This document shows, in pieces, positions 17,487 to 24,676 of a DNA stretch of 38,950 nucleotides (positions within the stretch are counted from its first letter, which is position 1; each line of letters starts with the position of its first letter). A program made the position numbers and the translations under genes. The notes below the pieces were generated by a model, which saw only the letters and a list, made by a program, of their open reading frames with translations, did not search any database and was not told where the DNA came from. The stretch lies in assembly GCA_030700255.1 (NCBI GenBank), contig JAUYJN010000008.1:1-38950 (forward strand). Reading direction: 5' to 3'. Source of the stretch: Candidatus Peregrinibacteria bacterium (GTDB lineage Bacteria > Patescibacteriota > Gracilibacteria > UBA1369 > JABINC01).

Positions 17487-17954
17487 ATGACGAGAAGAGC
17501 AAAGTTTGATGATTTTGAAGAGGGGGAGTTTGAATGTGGGGCTTTTGAAGGGCCTTTGTCTAAAGAGTTTATTGGACTTATGTATGTTGGGTTAATCCTT
17601 GCTACCCAGGTAAGGGACGCCCTGAGTGGTCTTGGTATCGGTTCAAGGCCTATATCATTAATTCCAAGAAGTGAACTGAGTCAGCCGGTCATCGCCCTAG
17701 ACGCAGCTACTCAAGCAAATAAAGCTAGGCATGATGCAAGTAAGGCTAGGTGTAAACTTCGTACAAAGGGGCTTTCTTGGGATAGTCCGGAAGCTTATGG
17801 TGCTGCTTCAAAAAATGAAATAGAGCGTTTACGAAAGTTGCAGGCTGGTGCGATTAGAGAAGATACCGTATTGGGGCAAGAAGCCACGCCGGTCTTGGGG
17901 CGAGATTTTGGATATGATCCGGTTTCCAAGCAATGGGTAGGTGAGAAAATTTAA
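17487..17954 (+). CDS. Hypothetical protein
   Basis: A 155-aa protein with an acidic N-terminus (DDFEEGEFECGAFEGP), a short moderately hydrophobic stretch (FIGLMYVGLILATQ) and a charged, Ala/Lys/Arg-rich second half. No family is recognised. It converges with the CofE-like gene and their ends overlap by 4 nt. An AT-rich leader precedes the ATG. Moderate length and amino-acid use support coding. Confidence 0.6.
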   Translation: MTRRAKFDDFEEGEFECGAFEGPLSKEFIGLMYVGLILATQVRDALSGLGIGSRPISLIPRSELSQPVIALDAATQANKARHDASKARCKLRTKGLSWDSPEAYGAASKNEIERLRKLQAGAIREDTVLGQEATPVLGRDFGYDPVSKQWVGEKI

Positions 17955-18694
17955 ATAGCAAACAGATCTTTATCGCTGTTGATTACGGCTTCGTTTGGAT
18001 TGGAGGATGCGTCTGTGAATGTAACGGGGGCTTCTTTTATGATCACTATAGGTGTGCATTCCGCAGATTCGCCCATGATACACATGGCGGCGGTAGTTAG
18101 GTTGTCAGCGACGGCGAGCTCCGTCATCTGCAGCGGAACTCCAAATAGATCCTCTGTCCCTCGCTCATCTCTGACCCCGATAAACCCACTCCATGCGAGG
18201 GCGAGGCCGGTAGTTCCTTTGCGCCCCGGAGTGATTCGCGAATCTGCAATGATGATTCCGAGACTCTCTATGTTGAATTCTTTTAATAATGCTTGTCTGA
18301 CTTTCTCCGCACTATCTTGAGGGTTCCTTGGCCATGGTATAGCGTATCCATTCGGTACATTTGAGCGGTCAGCTCCTGCATTTGGTATAAGGATCCCATT
18401 TTTTCTTGTTAAAAAACACTTATCGTCATCACTTTGACCACATTTTACCTCTCGAATTACCTCGTCTGATTCATTTTGAACTAGGTCTTTGAATGAAATA
18501 TCATCCAAATTAACCAAGTTTCCTTCCAAAATAGAGACTATTTTTGCACTTATTACTATCACAGAACCGATCAAAGTTTCACTCGGCGCATACTTTCCAA
18601 AACTTTTTTCAGCATCTTTGAGGCTTTTAACGACGAATTCTACGATATCGCCATTTCCTTTTACTACAGCTGTTTTGACCGCAACTAGTTCCAT
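17951..18694 (-). CDS. CofE-like F420-0:L-glutamate ligase family protein
   Basis: A 247-aa protein with motifs of coenzyme F420 gamma-glutamyl ligase (CofE/FbiB): GILIPNAGADRSNVPNG near residue 100, NPQDSAEKVRQALL, IIADSRITPGRKGTTGLALA and DERGTEDLFG, followed by the metal-site helix LAVADNLTTAAMCIMGE. The classic enzyme adds glutamate to F420-0 using GTP. No other F420 gene is present here and candidate-phylum bacteria are not expected to make F420, so another amide-ligation role is likely. The start is an ATG in a Shine-Dalgarno-free leader. Confidence 0.85.
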   Translation of the reverse strand: MELVAVKTAVVKGNGDIVEFVVKSLKDAEKSFGKYAPSETLIGSVIVISAKIVSILEGNLVNLDDISFKDLVQNESDEVIREVKCGQSDDDKCFLTRKNGILIPNAGADRSNVPNGYAIPWPRNPQDSAEKVRQALLKEFNIESLGIIIADSRITPGRKGTTGLALAWSGFIGVRDERGTEDLFGVPLQMTELAVADNLTTAAMCIMGESAECTPIVIIKEAPVTFTDASSNPNEAVINSDKDLFAI

Positions 18695-18746
18695 TCGAGA
18701 GTTATTATTAGAAAATGATATTAACGCCTGGGCAATGAGTAAAAAT

Positions 18747-18775
18747 TTGACATTCTGATTCGATGCGATTACAAT
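18747..18775 (+). promoter_or_regulatory. Consensus promoter in the 18.7-19.4 kb noncoding region
   Basis: TTGACA (18747-18752), 17 bp, TACAAT (18770-18775). This is one of the best promoters in the window, and no ORF follows it. Transcription should begin near 18782. Confidence 0.75.
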
Positions 18776-18781
18776 ACTTTG

Positions 18782-19341
18782 AACACTTCAGGAAGAAACA
18801 AATTTTTTACACCTCTACCTGATAAGTATTCATCTCAATATTCTCCTCGAATCTAATCCCCGATCAAGAAGTATTATACTGTTTGATCGGCAACAAAGCC
18901 AAGCGAGAAACGAAGTGACTCGCAAGTGTCGCCACTAAGCGACACAAGATAAGGAGCGCGAAGCTCACCAATTGTTCATTTAAATTACTATACGTCCCGC
19001 ACTCAATACGGGACATACAAACAAAGATTTCTGCTTTGTGAGTCCTATCTTAAGAAGTCTCAGCCAAGAATTTATTCTCGTCTAAGATCTCTTGTATAAG
19101 TTGGGCAACCACTTTTGCTCAGTATTTTTCAACCCACTTCGTTCACTCGAAGTAAAACCGCAAAACTACACTCAATGGGCGGTCCTGGTAAGACTAAAAA
19201 CTATACCGGAATGAGGCAGAGATAATGTGAAGTGCGTTTAATAGACGCTGAGTCAGAGCTTTTTATAACGTTTACTGACTGATAGCGAGAACGAACTACC
19301 ACATTGAAGAGACCCGCGCCGTGAGGCACGGGTCTTTTTTT
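18782..19341 (+). ncRNA. Candidate ~560-nt structured noncoding RNA
   Basis: Between a consensus promoter and a strong terminator there is no credible ORF but many helices on the plus strand: CCGATCAA/TTGATCGG, GCGAG/CTCGC, GTGTCGC-cactaa-GCGACAC, GAGC/GCTC, GTCCCG/CGGGAC, CAAAG/CTTTG, GGGCAA/TTGCTC, ACTTCG/CGAAGT, CCtGGTA/TACCGG, GCGT/ACGC, AGTCAG/CTGACT, and a closing AATGTG/CACATT. I could not match it to the conserved segments of RNase P RNA, tmRNA, SRP RNA or 6S RNA. It is the only gene-free stretch over 600 bp in the window. Confidence 0.6.
19310..19341 (+). terminator. Rho-independent terminator, probably bidirectional
   Basis: Stem AGACCCG-c-GCC, GTGA tetraloop, GGC-a-CGGGTCT, then seven T. 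It ends the plus-strand noncoding transcript and, read from the other side, can also stop the convergent LamG-like gene. Confidence 0.92.
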
Positions 19342-19388
19342 AATTCTCAAAATTTAACGACGCTTAACCTTTACCTTCACCTTAACTT

Positions 19389-20300
19389 TTACTTTTTTCT
19401 GACTGGCTCTAAATATCGTATAGCGCTATCCTGTAGACTTGGGAATGGCCCTCTTTCCGCCAAAGCAGCTTGTTTTAATTCTCTTTCTTGCTGTATTTGA
19501 GCCTTTAGTGATAGATGTTTAGTTTCTGGTTCTCTGTAATGATATGCTCTTTTTACGTATCTTTGTTTCGGTTTACCAGAGTGCTGAACACCTTGTATTG
19601 CGTTTACAGGGCTACTACTTGGCGTTGTTGTTTGAATTTGAATATTGCTAAATCTCACATCTGCATCCTCTGAGTAAAATCCAAATTTACCATCAAGTGA
19701 GAGCGTTCTTGCTCCAGAAAATACAAATTTCTGAACACCATCAACTGTTACTGTTATCACACCACTTTCGACATTAATTATAACGTCATATGAAGTGCCA
19801 ACGTCATAGCTATCGTCTCCAACCGACGAAGTCCAAAGGAAGTTTTGACCATCCTCTGTCAATGCTTCTCCAAGCTCGAGTCCATAGCCATTTGGTTTTA
19901 AAATCAAATAAGTGAACGTTTGATCAGGCCCCCCAAGTGAATCAAGTGCATCATTGTATCCAAATACTAACCATGGAGCTTCCCAAGGATTTGGCGGGTC
20001 ATTTTGACGCAGTTGCGCCAAATTCTCAACAGTCATAGAGATTTCATAGTCTCCTGTTAGATTTTCATTGCTAGTCACTAACCCTGCATGCGTCTCAGAT
20101 AGTATGGTCGCAGTCATTGGCGTAAGCTGAACCGTATTAGCCACTTGATTGACGTCGACAGTTCCAAATCCTGTGTATACAGTATTTAAAGTAAAATCGG
20201 CCAAAGTCGACGCAAACACAATTGAAGCACTGACAAATACAGCGATGGAAAGACACGTAAAGAACTTTGTAAATCCTGTAAATAATTTGTATGATTTCAT
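19389..20300 (-). CDS. Secreted LamG/DUF1080-like protein with possible -1 frameshift tail
   Basis: A 303-aa exported protein with a Sec signal or anchor (about residues 10-31, FFTCLSIAVFVSASIVFAST). A jelly-roll region follows (about 35-220) with features of concanavalin-like/3-keto-disaccharide-hydrolase folds (YEISMTVENLAQL, PWLVFGYND, YDVIINVESGVITVTVDGV, GKFGFYSEDADVRFSNIQI). After a short linker comes a basic, charged tail. The stop is immediately preceded by A_AAA_AAG (19392-19398). A -1 shift there would add (VK)5RR and end at 19354. The function is probably carbohydrate or surface binding; a catalytic role is not evident. Confidence 0.75.
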   Translation of the reverse strand: MKSYKLFTGFTKFFTCLSIAVFVSASIVFASTLADFTLNTVYTGFGTVDVNQVANTVQLTPMTATILSETHAGLVTSNENLTGDYEISMTVENLAQLRQNDPPNPWEAPWLVFGYNDALDSLGGPDQTFTYLILKPNGYGLELGEALTEDGQNFLWTSSVGDDSYDVGTSYDVIINVESGVITVTVDGVQKFVFSGARTLSLDGKFGFYSEDADVRFSNIQIQTTTPSSSPVNAIQGVQHSGKPKQRYVKRAYHYREPETKHLSLKAQIQQERELKQAALAERGPFPSLQDSAIRYLEPVRKK

Positions 20301-20379
20301 GCCACTTATTAAGAGTATTGATTATGTCACAATCCAATCCGTGCGTCAAGCGCGTTGTAAGTGGCGAGTTTCAGTAGAT

Positions 20380-20407
20380 TTGTTTTTTATAAGATATATG
20401 GTAGAAT
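20380..20407 (+). promoter_or_regulatory. Promoter of hicBA, apparently leaderless
   Basis: TTGTTT (20380-20385), 16 bp, TAGAAT (20402-20407). ATG 20414 follows the -10 box by only 6 nt, so the mRNA should start at or near the start codon. Confidence 0.55.
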
Positions 20408-20413
20408 ATACAC

Positions 20414-20623
20414 ATGAAAATTCACGTATATTCAGCTGTGGTTTATAAAGAAGAAGATCTTTATGTAGCCGAATGTCCCGAGGTGGGTACGGCGAGCCAG
20501 GGAGCAACATTTGAAGATGCAATTGCAAATTTAAAAGAGGCAACTGAGCTTTATTTGGAAGAGTTTCCAGTCACGAACAAAGCGGTTCCTTTTCTTACAA
20601 CTTTCGAAGTGAGTCATGCCTAA
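20414..20623 (+). CDS. hicB: HicB-like antitoxin
   Basis: A 69-aa partial-RNase-H-fold HicB antitoxin: HVYSAVVYKEEDLYVAECPE, then GATFEDAIANLKEATELYLE. The short version lacks an obvious C-terminal DNA-binding domain. It precedes and overlaps the HicA toxin by 8 nt, which is the antitoxin-first order. Confidence 0.9.
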   Translation: MKIHVYSAVVYKEEDLYVAECPEVGTASQGATFEDAIANLKEATELYLEEFPVTNKAVPFLTTFEVSHA

Positions 20624-20896: not shown

Positions 20897-21313
20897 CTAC
20901 GGCAGATTATTTATCCAGGTTTGTCCGTCTACGGTGGTGAGTGAATCTCCCGGGTAAAAATTATTGCCCGCGATTGCATATATCGAGCCCATCCCGTTAT
21001 ACATCGATTCGACATAGTTAAAATACCACATTGCCAGTAGTACATCCGGGAAGGTTTGAACCGAAGGTGATATTATGTTCATCGTGCCGGTCACGGTGTT
21101 TGCATATACCGCAAGTATTTTCGATGCTTCCGCTCTGACTATGAGATCGTTCGGTGCGCAGTATCCCGTGCTATATGGAGTGACAATCCCCAGATTCACA
21201 GCGGTGACCCATACCGGCGTTTGCGCCGCAGTTACGTCGACACATGGAGCCGACCCTGTTAGCAGCGGCCGTCCTTCCACCGTGAACAATGTAGAAAGCA
21301 GATCGTTACGGAG
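20897..21313 (-). pseudogene. C-terminal SLH part of the surface protein, out of frame
   Basis: This open frame, reading from 21313 (no ATG; a TTG at 21289), continues the gene at 21306-23525 in the +1 frame. It encodes about 138 aa with two S-layer-homology-like repeats: VWVTAVNLGIVTPYS...APNDLIVRAEASKIL, then FPDV-x-AMWYFNYVESMYNGMG...FYPGDSLTTVDGQTW. SLH modules normally anchor proteins to cell-wall polymers, so this is the expected end of the large surface protein. It is joined either by programmed frameshifting at CCG_TAA_C or by a mutation. Confidence 0.75.
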
Positions 21314-23525
21314 TCATGTATGCGGGAGATACGGCTGGTTGGACATCTACGAGATTTCCGAGTGAAATATCACAAGTATTCCAACTTGGACATATGAACG
21401 GATTGATTGTTGATGAACTTTGATTAAATCTAATTAGAAACGGTATTGTAGGGTCGCTCGCCGTAACTGGATTTGTAAGTCCTGTTACATGAAGGCCTAT
21501 TTCAATTTCATTATCGTTTGTTGCCGTACCACTGTCATATGAGACATCATAACCTGCATCAGTGGCAAATGTAGGGCTTATATCAGCAACTACTGCGAGA
21601 AATTTCTCCGAACCGGGCAGTCCATTATGAGGAAAATTGAGATTTAAACTTTGCCCAGTAACCACATTACTTGGTCCCATCTGAAGACCACTTGCAAGTG
21701 GTGCACCGATAGGTTGATTGAGCGAGTAATCCCATTCATATAGACGAATATTTGTAAGATCCGGATGGATGGCATTATTGATCGCTAGTGGCTCATCACT
21801 AATCTTCAGTTCATTCAATGTGGCGCTAAGCGTTTGAGACCAGTTTTTCGCAACAAATACACCAAACAATACATCATTTTGACCCTGCTGAGCGGTAATC
21901 GGCCAAGGCGAGCCTGCACTTACAGGTTCCATAATCGATAAATTAGTCATATCAACATACACATTATAATCAGAAAATCCGGGAGCTGTAATTTGAGATG
22001 GAAGTAACAATTGTCCACTCGTTGTATCGGTTGCAACCGTAGTCAACTGTGCGTTATTGATAGCAAATATAAATAAGTCGTTATAGAAGCCCGATGCGTT
22101 GAAGATACTAGCAGGGTTTACATTCACCATAAGTTCAAAATGAGTTGGAACATTTGGAGTTAAAGCGAACGATCCAACATTCAAATCAACATATCCATCC
22201 ACATCACACTGAGGTGAGGTATAATTTGAACCGAGGGGGACAATACCATTTCCATTGGTCACGAGTGTGCCAAAATTTGATTGTAAATTGAAATTATTTA
22301 ACTTCGCGTTAAGTGTCGCTCCCATCTGAGATAAATTTGCACACATCGCAGGGGTAATTTGTGTCCCATATTCATCTGTTCGTAGTCGCGTATTCAAAGT
22401 AAATCTAAGCGTATTCAAAGCCACTGGAGCGGAAGGCGTAAGATTTAAATATGAAACATATCTGGTTTGAGTTCCAGAAGGCGCGTTGGGATACACATAA
22501 TGATTTTCATTTGGCAAAGCATTGAGTGCAGTATCTACCTGTATATCCAAAGTCACCGGAGCAGTCACGATGGGTGTTGCCCACATCCTCTTCCTCCACT
22601 GAGCGAATGCGTTTGAGATGCCGCCCCACATGTCCATGAGGTCGGTGTTGTCTTCATTATAATAAAGTCCGGCGGCGGTGTGCCAGATGAAATGTGAATT
22701 TACGTTGTGTGCATCGCTAAGAGTTCCGCCTACAACTGGTGTGAAAGTCAGACTGTCATTGGCTCGAACTTGAATATAATCGAAAGTGAGTGGTCCGGCG
22801 CTGTCGTCAACTATGTCGGCTGTCACTATGTATGTCTGAGTTCCGAGTGGTGGAATTACAGGTGGCTGATTTATCGGATTAAGAAGGTTCCCGGGATATG
22901 ACCAATCGAAATCCACGTATCCGTTTACGTTCGCGGCGTTATACACATGTCCTCTTGTGAGAGGAGTGTTCGGCGCGCTTGCGTCATATATTTTCCACTG
23001 CGCTCTGGAGTTCCACACGGTTTGGTCTATACCTTTTACCGTGTATTCCAAATACACCTTATCCATATATATAGGTGTCGTAGCGGAAGTGTTTTTGATG
23101 CGCATCGTGTACACGACTTCGTCGTTATTATATGCCAGATCATAAGTGGTGTATTCTCCGTTAACGACACAAGTTGGAGATCCGAACGGATCGTTACAAG
23201 CACCAAGGTATGTTTCGATTACAGGGTTTGCGTCCGGTTGAATTCCATTTCCCACATAATCATTATATCGTTCCGCATTACGCTCTTTTGTCGTACTTTT
23301 CGTTGTATTTTTTGTAGTTTCAGTCTTAGTTTTTGGTGCTACTTTTTTAGGGGTGGCAGTGGATTTCCGTGCGACCATTTCTCGTTGAAGTTTCTTGCCT
23401 TGTTCTCTTGTGAGCTTCACCCTTCCGGTTAAGTCTGAGCCGGAGTTTACGGCGAGGCTTATTGCACCGCCGAGAGTCAAGATAATCACTAAAGCGAGCC
23501 CGATCAGTTTGTGCGAATTCTTCAT
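21306..23525 (-). CDS. Large exported surface protein (N-terminal part)
   Basis: From ATG 23525 (MKNSHKLIGLALVIILTLGG, a better start than the upstream ATG at 23585) the product is 739 aa. It has one N-terminal membrane/signal helix, then SGSDLTGRVKLTREQG, a Thr/Lys-rich stalk (KSTATPKKVAPKTKTETTKN) and several beta-sandwich-like modules rich in Asn, Thr and Pro. The frame stops at TAA (21306-21308) just before SLH-encoding sequence in the +1 frame. The N-terminal motif SG-x3-GR-x-KL is shared with the two exported proteins at 24698 and 25385. No enzyme motif is seen; a structural or adhesive surface role is likely. Confidence 0.75.
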   Translation of the reverse strand: MKNSHKLIGLALVIILTLGGAISLAVNSGSDLTGRVKLTREQGKKLQREMVARKSTATPKKVAPKTKTETTKNTTKSTTKERNAERYNDYVGNGIQPDANPVIETYLGACNDPFGSPTCVVNGEYTTYDLAYNNDEVVYTMRIKNTSATTPIYMDKVYLEYTVKGIDQTVWNSRAQWKIYDASAPNTPLTRGHVYNAANVNGYVDFDWSYPGNLLNPINQPPVIPPLGTQTYIVTADIVDDSAGPLTFDYIQVRANDSLTFTPVVGGTLSDAHNVNSHFIWHTAAGLYYNEDNTDLMDMWGGISNAFAQWRKRMWATPIVTAPVTLDIQVDTALNALPNENHYVYPNAPSGTQTRYVSYLNLTPSAPVALNTLRFTLNTRLRTDEYGTQITPAMCANLSQMGATLNAKLNNFNLQSNFGTLVTNGNGIVPLGSNYTSPQCDVDGYVDLNVGSFALTPNVPTHFELMVNVNPASIFNASGFYNDLFIFAINNAQLTTVATDTTSGQLLLPSQITAPGFSDYNVYVDMTNLSIMEPVSAGSPWPITAQQGQNDVLFGVFVAKNWSQTLSATLNELKISDEPLAINNAIHPDLTNIRLYEWDYSLNQPIGAPLASGLQMGPSNVVTGQSLNLNFPHNGLPGSEKFLAVVADISPTFATDAGYDVSYDSGTATNDNEIEIGLHVTGLTNPVTASDPTIPFLIRFNQSSSTINPFICPSWNTCDISLGNLVDVQPAVSPAYMTP

Positions 23526-23638
23526 AATATGATGGATTACATAAATAAATCCATTTATTATAACATCTATCTTCATATTTAGCAAATTAAGTATGTAAAA
23601 AACGTATCATTCTTTACAATACTCCTTTTTATAAAAAG

Positions 23639-24676
23639 TTACATTCTGTGTTCGTCGAGAAATTCGCTACCGATTTTTTCTTCACCATCTTCCTTTATCG
23701 GTACTTGTACGGTTTCGTTTGGATGAATTTTATCGAATTCTCCGAAATTACTTTCCATAAGTTGTGATCTCTCTGCCTCAACTTTTTCAACGTCAGGTTG
23801 ATATACTGTGCGAATAGGGAAAGGAATGCTGATTCCCACTTTGTCGAAATTCATTTTGAGTACTCGAGCGACTTCGGAGCGAGTGTGTCTCCAGTTTGAC
23901 CTGGAATCAACCCAGAACCAAAGTCGTAGATTGATAGAACTATTTGAAAATTCATCTACTAGAACTGAGGGAGTCGGTTCTTTTAAAACTCCTTCTATCT
24001 GCAACATACTTGCAAAACAAACTTGGCAAGCTTTTGCCAGAGGCGTTGAATACTCAACACCTACGATTATTTCTAAACGTCTAAAAGGATTTGATGTGAA
24101 ACTTACAACTTTTTTAGAAAACAGGTCCGCATTTGGAATAATAATACGTGTCCCATCAAGGGCTTGTAGCACCGTTGCACGTGATTGGATTTCAACTATT
24201 TTTCCGATAGTACCTTCTATCTCAATATAATCTCCAATTGTAAAATGTCGTGAGAGTAATACGAGCACTCCGGCGATAAAGTTTGTAATAATTCCTTGTA
24301 GTGCAAAACCAAGTCCGAAACCAACTGCGGCAACTAGTGCCGTTAAGTCGAATCCGGCAATTTTCATACCAATCATGATACCGAGTGTTAGAACAGAAAC
24401 ATAGGTAGTACGTCCTACAAGTACGAGAACATCTTGGTGGTCGTCATCGAGTTTTGCTGCAACTTTGTTTGTTACTAAGTTTTTTACAAGCTTCGCAACT
24501 ATGATAGAAAAAACCATAACAATGATTCCAGCCACCCAAAACGGAGCTCTATCAACGAGAGTTGTGACAAATTCCTGCAAACCTGAAGTAGTTTCATTTG
24601 CAGTAGTCCTGGCAGATGCGGCTTGTGCGAATGCAGTCGGGATAAAATATGTGAAAAGTGCTTCTAACATAATCAA
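23639..24676 (-). CDS. mscS: MscS-family mechanosensitive channel
   Basis: A 345-aa small-conductance mechanosensitive channel. It has an N-terminal signal-like segment ending FAQA, three membrane helices (about 43-62, 83-103 and 110-150) with the pore-lining Gly/Ala helix VAAVGFGLGFALQGIITNFIAG, then the beta domain (FTIGDYIEIEGTIGKIVEIQSRAT, IIIPNADLF) and the C-terminal alpha/beta domain. It would release solutes on hypo-osmotic shock. Its 5' end lies inside the tandem-duplicated segment, and a truncated copy is found at 25307-25380. Confidence 0.94.
   Translation of the reverse strand: MIMLEALFTYFIPTAFAQAASARTTANETTSGLQEFVTTLVDRAPFWVAGIIVMVFSIIVAKLVKNLVTNKVAAKLDDDHQDVLVLVGRTTYVSVLTLGIMIGMKIAGFDLTALVAAVGFGLGFALQGIITNFIAGVLVLLSRHFTIGDYIEIEGTIGKIVEIQSRATVLQALDGTRIIIPNADLFSKKVVSFTSNPFRRLEIIVGVEYSTPLAKACQVCFASMLQIEGVLKEPTPSVLVDEFSNSSINLRLWFWVDSRSNWRHTRSEVARVLKMNFDKVGISIPFPIRTVYQPDVEKVEAERSQLMESNFGEFDKIHPNETVQVPIKEDGEEKIGSEFLDEHRM

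Follow-up and report, generated by a model that had tools for sequence, protein, structure and literature searches.

A probable stand-alone gene for a structured RNA with a conserved pseudoknotted core in Peregrinibacteria

The window analysed in this study is a stretch of 38,950 nucleotides of Candidatus Peregrinibacteria DNA (contig JAUYJN010000008.1), and it includes an intergenic gap of 694 nucleotides between two minus-strand ORFs. On one side is a gene (17951-18694) coding for a CofE-like F420-0:gamma-glutamyl ligase domain protein (Pfam PF01996, E = 1e-43), and on the other is an ORF of 303 amino acids (19389-20300). The gap holds positions 18747-19341, where all RNA features described below are read from the plus strand and the CofE-like gene is a divergent neighbour. 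A gene for an MscS-type channel, recognized by Pfam, is located farther along on the minus strand (23639-24676), and both it and the CofE-like gene serve as synteny markers. The 303-aa ORF and another large minus-strand ORF (21306-23585, 759 aa) have no Pfam match. The former has a signal-peptide-like start and, among the neighbours examined, is common only to a second genome of the same genus (G001).

The gap contains a sigma-70-type promoter at 18747-18775, composed of TTGACA (18747-18752), a 17-nucleotide spacer and TACAAT (18770-18775). A consensus promoter of this form had been claimed by an earlier sequence-only reading of the window, and it is borne out at 11 of 12 consensus positions. 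The site is also the top-scoring promoter-like sequence across 17900-20450, and G001 carries TTGACT-17-TACAAT at the counterpart position. At the other end, the GNRA-loop terminator claimed in the same reading is present at 19311-19341 as a stem GACCCGcGCC / GGCaCGGGTC, wherein the arms GACCCGCGCC and GGCACGGGTC enclose a GUGA loop and are followed by T7. The probable transcript, whose ends are placed by these two signals, therefore spans 18782-19341 and is about 560 nucleotides long.

The predicted folding energy of this transcript is -159 kcal/mol compared to -122 ± 6.3 for shuffled sequences (z = -5.85, with none of 100 shuffles as good), which agrees with the initial description of a structured RNA of about 560 nucleotides. 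However, the reverse strand of the region folds comparably (z = -6.1). Because the opposite strand folds equally well, the strand is not given by folding energy alone, and it was assigned from the promoter, the terminator and covariation. No plus-strand ORF longer than 40 aa is located wholly within the transcript, in line with the claim that the region lacks a credible ORF.

The 5' domain of the RNA (18782-19032) folds well on its own (z = -5.03) and appears to form local hairpins at 18860-18867/18883-18890, 18903-18907/18919-18923, 18926-18932/18939-18945 and 18994-18999/19009-19014. Judging from sequence comparisons this domain is variable, with homology demonstrated inside the genus only. 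A candidate conserved block in the 5' domain (CGAATCTAAT) was rejected after its control failed (10 of 24 versus 7.7 expected). At the 3' end, an imperfect hairpin (19224-19305) is formed by AAUGUG (19224-19229) and CACAUU (19300-19305), with an inner stem (19247-19256/19275-19286) that is conserved in G001. The segment 19222-19341, including the terminator, has a folding z of -5.68. Alignment-based conservation is demonstrated for approximately 19033-19221, and for the 3' hairpin and terminator within the genus.

Positions 19033-19221 form the conserved core domain of the RNA family. The core is closed by GCUUUGU (19033-19039) pairing with AUGAGGC (19211-19217), which corresponds to family helices 1 and 2, wherein 93.6% and 97.3% of alignment cells are paired, respectively. 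A long-range closing stem noted from the window letters finds no support from evolution, and this helix is the closing pairing that is supported. Next is a core hairpin (19042-19106) with GUCC (19042-19045) paired to GGGC (19103-19106), whose insert is enlarged in the window copy. It matches family helix 3, for which double changes are found in 5 of 5 pairs and 94.9% of cells are paired among 73 homologues. This is followed by a two-part stem (19117-19180) composed of GCUCA (19117-19121) with UGGGC (19176-19180) and a short pairing of GUA (19122-19124) with UAC (19167-19169). These parts are family helices 5 and 6, and all 10 of their pairs exhibit double changes among the same 73 homologues. 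A hairpin inside this stem (19136-19153) is specific to the window. Across the family, the core ranges in length from 140 to 190 nucleotides.

The remainder of the core is an H-type pseudoknot. Its first stem (19181-19195) pairs GGUC (19181-19184) with GACU (19192-19195), and its second (19187-19207) pairs GGUA (19187-19190) with UACC (19204-19207) across an A-rich crossing loop, AAAAAC. The family version has GUCC/GGAC as stem 1 and UGGC/GCCA as stem 2, with the core string GGUCCGUGGCAGGACUGGAAAAAACAGCCAAAGC, and the window RNA conforms to the family pattern of GGUC/GACU plus UGG(C/U)/(G/A)CC with an A-rich loop. Stem 1 varies among UA, CG and AU at its middle pair and exchanges CG for GC at its inner pair, whereas stem 2 is GGUA/UACC in the window versus GGUCA/UGACC in G001. 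In 20 sequences, 95.6% of pseudoknot cells pair and 8 are doubly changed, compared to 1.9 ± 1.1 in shuffles. A weaker second pseudoknot-like string (GGTCTGGTCAGACTTAAAACA) is present about 45 nucleotides 3' of the true core in G002 (L050, ~2039-2060) and in L051.

The family was reached through a 45-nucleotide DNA match in G036 and a motif search, which led to G002 and G049, whose RNAs were then used as queries. In G001 the RNA is found at the same address, with the promoter conserved and 76% identity over the 3' half. We used several covariance models and alignments to evaluate the structure. Model R1 represents the pseudoknot core with stem 2 left out. In the resulting 95-row alignment, which was not fitted to stem 2 and in which a handful of the weakest rows are probably chance matches, 93.9% of stem 2 cells pair nonetheless, and one pair is found as UA 33 times, CG 28 times and AU 4 times. 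Alignment A3 holds 20 homologues from the address of the window copy, with the window and G001 left out, and its consensus includes the closing helix, the hairpin, the two-part stem and pseudoknot stem 1. With stem 2 added, double-sided changes are present in 14 of 31 pairs compared to 6.6 ± 1.3 in shuffles, and pairing is lost when the partners are slid.

Model R2 was trained from A3 and therefore without the window sequence. When used to scan the window, its sole match is 19033-19221 (E = 1e-7), placing the window RNA in a new Peregrinibacteria family. The same model recovers copies at a second genomic address described below and matches 0 of 20 unrelated decoy loci. In an alignment of 73 homologues, 93.8% of cells pair, 25 of 27 pairs exhibit double changes, and 382 cells are doubly changed versus 101 ± 10 in shuffled data, although relatedness among the sequences inflates such covariation counts, as does, in the case of A5, alignment to the model. 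Because the 73-homologue alignment was fitted to its model, the A3 covariation and the blind R2 match to the window are the stronger tests. The sequence-only reading had proposed a covariance model and a search of genomes from the Candidate Phyla Radiation (CPR); the former yields strong covariation and the latter homologues in Peregrinibacteria.

The family is found almost exclusively in one order of Peregrinibacteria. A scan of 353 genomes of the class with R1 gives matches with E ≤ 1e-5 in 56 genomes, all of them among the 89 that belong to the order. With R3, a scan of 380 genomes spread across the phylum finds the RNA in 14 of the 17 listed genomes of the order, clearly in one other genome of the class, and weakly in one more (E = 0.002). 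This last match, outside the class, is what chance would give. The RNA might not be universal in the order because R3 missed 3 of those 17 genomes, though the genome scans used strict filters by which absence from a single genome is not proven. With three loci designated f24 (L168, L169 and L180), the family reaches into another lineage of the class. Searches of phage and of plasmid sequences found no relatives of the RNA. RNAs of this kind had been expected to be rare in small genomes, which does not hold in this order, where the RNA is widespread and a genome often carries two copies.

Homologous loci share the gene anatomy seen in the window. Upstream of the core, a promoter matching at least 10 of 12 positions is found in 43 of 73 homologues compared to 6.6 expected from shuffles, and a strong terminator is located ~50-150 nucleotides 3' of the core in most. 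An ORF of at least 150 aa covers the core in only one of the 73, and in 49 of them the next gene downstream is encoded on the other strand. Thus, the RNA appears to be neither a coding region nor a 5' leader, and a leader or riboswitch function is excluded for most loci. Although the intergenic position and the good folding of both strands could be expected of a cis-acting element or of a chance intergenic structure, the RNA has its own terminator, is followed in the window and most homologues by an oppositely oriented gene, exhibits strong covariation, and is recovered by a blind model. This explanation is already contradicted by synteny and covariation, and we consider it close to untenable.

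Representatives occupy two conserved addresses. The first has a divergent gene, CofE-like or serine dehydratase-like (the latter named by sequence reading), on one side of the RNA and a convergent MscS gene on the other. This is the address of the window copy; a CofE-like homologue is divergent from the RNA in 15 loci, and MscS is downstream on the opposite strand in 19. A search of genome contigs with the F420-ligase protein returned no loci. At the second address, the divergent gene is DinG-like (exonuclease/helicase), and the RNA is often followed by a carbamoyl-phosphate synthase small-subunit-like gene, both names again coming from sequence reading. Both addresses are occupied in 17 genomes. 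Scans of the window's own genome with R1 and R3 found no second-address copy, where the strict filters again mean that this is not proof of absence. A tree of the core groups the sequences by address much more strongly than shuffles do, without separating the two addresses cleanly, 141 columns being too few. Overall, the RNA is inherited vertically with fixed neighbours.

Since the core is retained at both addresses despite their different neighbours, we infer that this probable stand-alone RNA is likely to act in trans. One way of acting in trans is regulatory, either through protein sequestration in the manner of 6S or CsrB RNAs or through base-pairing with mRNAs. Having a promoter and terminator of its own would suit such an RNA, as would the presence of two copies per genome in many species, which is true of some regulatory RNAs, and the variable 5' half could hold target sites. 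However, conservation falls on a compact core with a pseudoknot and numerous covarying helices, and not on a long hairpin with bulges, a series of short hairpins or a seed sequence, and there is no match to the 6S or Csr families. These characteristics make a regulatory role rather unlikely.

To place the RNA among known classes, the region was compared to all 4227 families of Rfam 15, another check proposed at the outset. No family match was obtained: no score in the region rises to the gathering threshold of its family, and lowering the bar to E = 10 yields nothing credible. A scan of 20 homologous loci likewise gave only matches below gathering score, whose displayed alignments consist of U- or A-rich stretches or simple hairpins. 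The sequence-only reading had seen no match to RNase P, tmRNA, SRP or 6S RNA. This assessment holds, with the first three explicitly excluded. In 6S RNA, a long hairpin carries a central open-promoter-like bubble, in contrast to the multi-helix pseudoknot domain conserved here.

RNase P RNA (RF00010) is similar to the window RNA in its size class, in its compact conserved core with a variable periphery, and in its housekeeping-like distribution. One conceivable reading is a ribozyme or an RNA-processing enzyme's RNA subunit, such as a distant RNase P/MRP-like paralogue, since a large pseudoknotted core with a variable periphery is typical of RNAs of this sort. Judged by eye, some short strings (for example GAUGG and CCGUGGCACGGUAAAC) may resemble E. 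coli RNase P RNA. However, RNase P models give no match in 18600-19450 up to E = 10 or in 20 homologous loci up to E = 0.5, and an ordinary RNase P RNA is already encoded elsewhere in the same genome (C43:116421-116865, 166 bits). We therefore view this hypothesis as unlikely.

The window RNA also resembles tmRNA (RF00023) as a stand-alone structured RNA of a few hundred nucleotides with pseudoknots. However, ARAGORN detects no tRNA-like end or tag frame at the RNA, its one hit in the window being a tRNA-Ser elsewhere, and the tmRNA of this genome (G000) is at C37:796-1223 (131 bits).

Bacterial SRP RNA (RF00169, RF01854) is likewise a stand-alone housekeeping RNA. In five genomes of the order (G000, G001, G002, G031 and G025), neither the small (RF00169) nor the large (RF01854) form is recognized at E ≤ 0.1, whereas controls work, indicating that the SRP RNA of these genomes is either very divergent or missing. 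This could mean that the new RNA is a divergent stand-in for SRP RNA. However, the SRP models do not match it, a simple pattern for a domain-IV-like motif is found in just 1 of 73 homologues, the core is a pseudoknot rather than an SRP hairpin, and the true SRP RNA might be too divergent for the models. This makes a stand-in very improbable. Ranked by likelihood, a regulatory RNA comes ahead of a ribozyme, and a ribozyme ahead of an SRP replacement.

Among the large RNAs of Rfam 15, including OLE, ROOL, GOLLD and HEARO, none gives a covariance match to the window RNA. Like the window RNA, OLE, ROOL and GOLLD are long non-coding RNAs that stand alone, are structured and have conserved pseudoknots or kissing contacts, and ROOL and GOLLD have no known function (PMC12286853). 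The latter two are borne by phages or prophages, whereas the window RNA has no match among phage records. The family also differs from all three in residing at fixed addresses between ordinary genes of one bacterial order. In the open-access literature, we found no published RNA of this kind from CPR bacteria or Peregrinibacteria.

Considered together, these results lead us to favour, with a probability of roughly 0.6, a gene that stands alone and specifies a structured, trans-acting RNA of about 560 nucleotides, which represents a non-Rfam family and has a scaffold-type housekeeping role. The scaffold role is suggested by a conserved part that is a compact, tertiary-looking core with a variable periphery. 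The core would fold as a compact tertiary unit with the A-rich loop along the pseudoknot, and the variable 5' domain and 3' hairpin would decorate it. The RNA might then serve as scaffold for a ribonucleoprotein or RNA complex that is made constitutively. No protein partner was found to track the RNA from genome to genome. A more ambitious and decidedly tentative version is that this is an order-specific housekeeping RNA, often with two paralogous copies, that forms the core of a ribonucleoprotein or a catalytic RNA of a standing comparable to tmRNA or RNase P.

It is uncommon for a new family of large structured RNAs to be found, and the cases seen to date point to unknown RNA machines. The novelty of this RNA is at the level of the family, which has no homologous family in Rfam 15, and its mode of action may be of a known kind. 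The RNA gene had gone unnoticed, and most sampled members of an order with genomes near 1 Mb retain it. Its retention in such small genomes, frequently in two copies, argues for a function worth its cost. With the core defined and a covariance model in hand, it is a testable target that should appear in metatranscriptomes of Peregrinibacteria.

Several candidate relatives were rejected. The DNA matches L004-L007 are weak, short and local, and L004 and L005 lie inside genes. Most matches of the pattern YCTGGTMAGACTWAAAAC in bacterial genome contigs are in genes of unrelated bacteria (L013 and L014 are in genes), and both of its matches in viral contigs are under ORFs. In G002 and G049, this pattern marks the weaker second motif copy about 45 nucleotides 3' of the true core.

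Other features of the loci were also observed. Just ahead of the -35 box in the window (~18729-18746) is GGGCAATGAGTAAAAATTTGAC, and relatives at the first address (for example L059, L091 and L163) carry a conserved GTCCATTACA..TTTGAC. This string is perhaps an activator or UP-type site that the RNA shares with the divergent gene. Close copies of the RNA are found within single genomes such as G025 and G086. In L153 (G025:C1:89400-94700), L154 (G014:C2) and L135 (G086:C11), paired copies are located 1.1-2.7 kb apart on the same strand, and the pairs in G025 and G014 flank a gene for a protein of 706-710 aa. Finally, the predicted transcripts of many second-address RNAs (for example L148, L153 and L158) start with a small hairpin, TGATTTTC...GAAAATCA, whose arms co-vary between loci.
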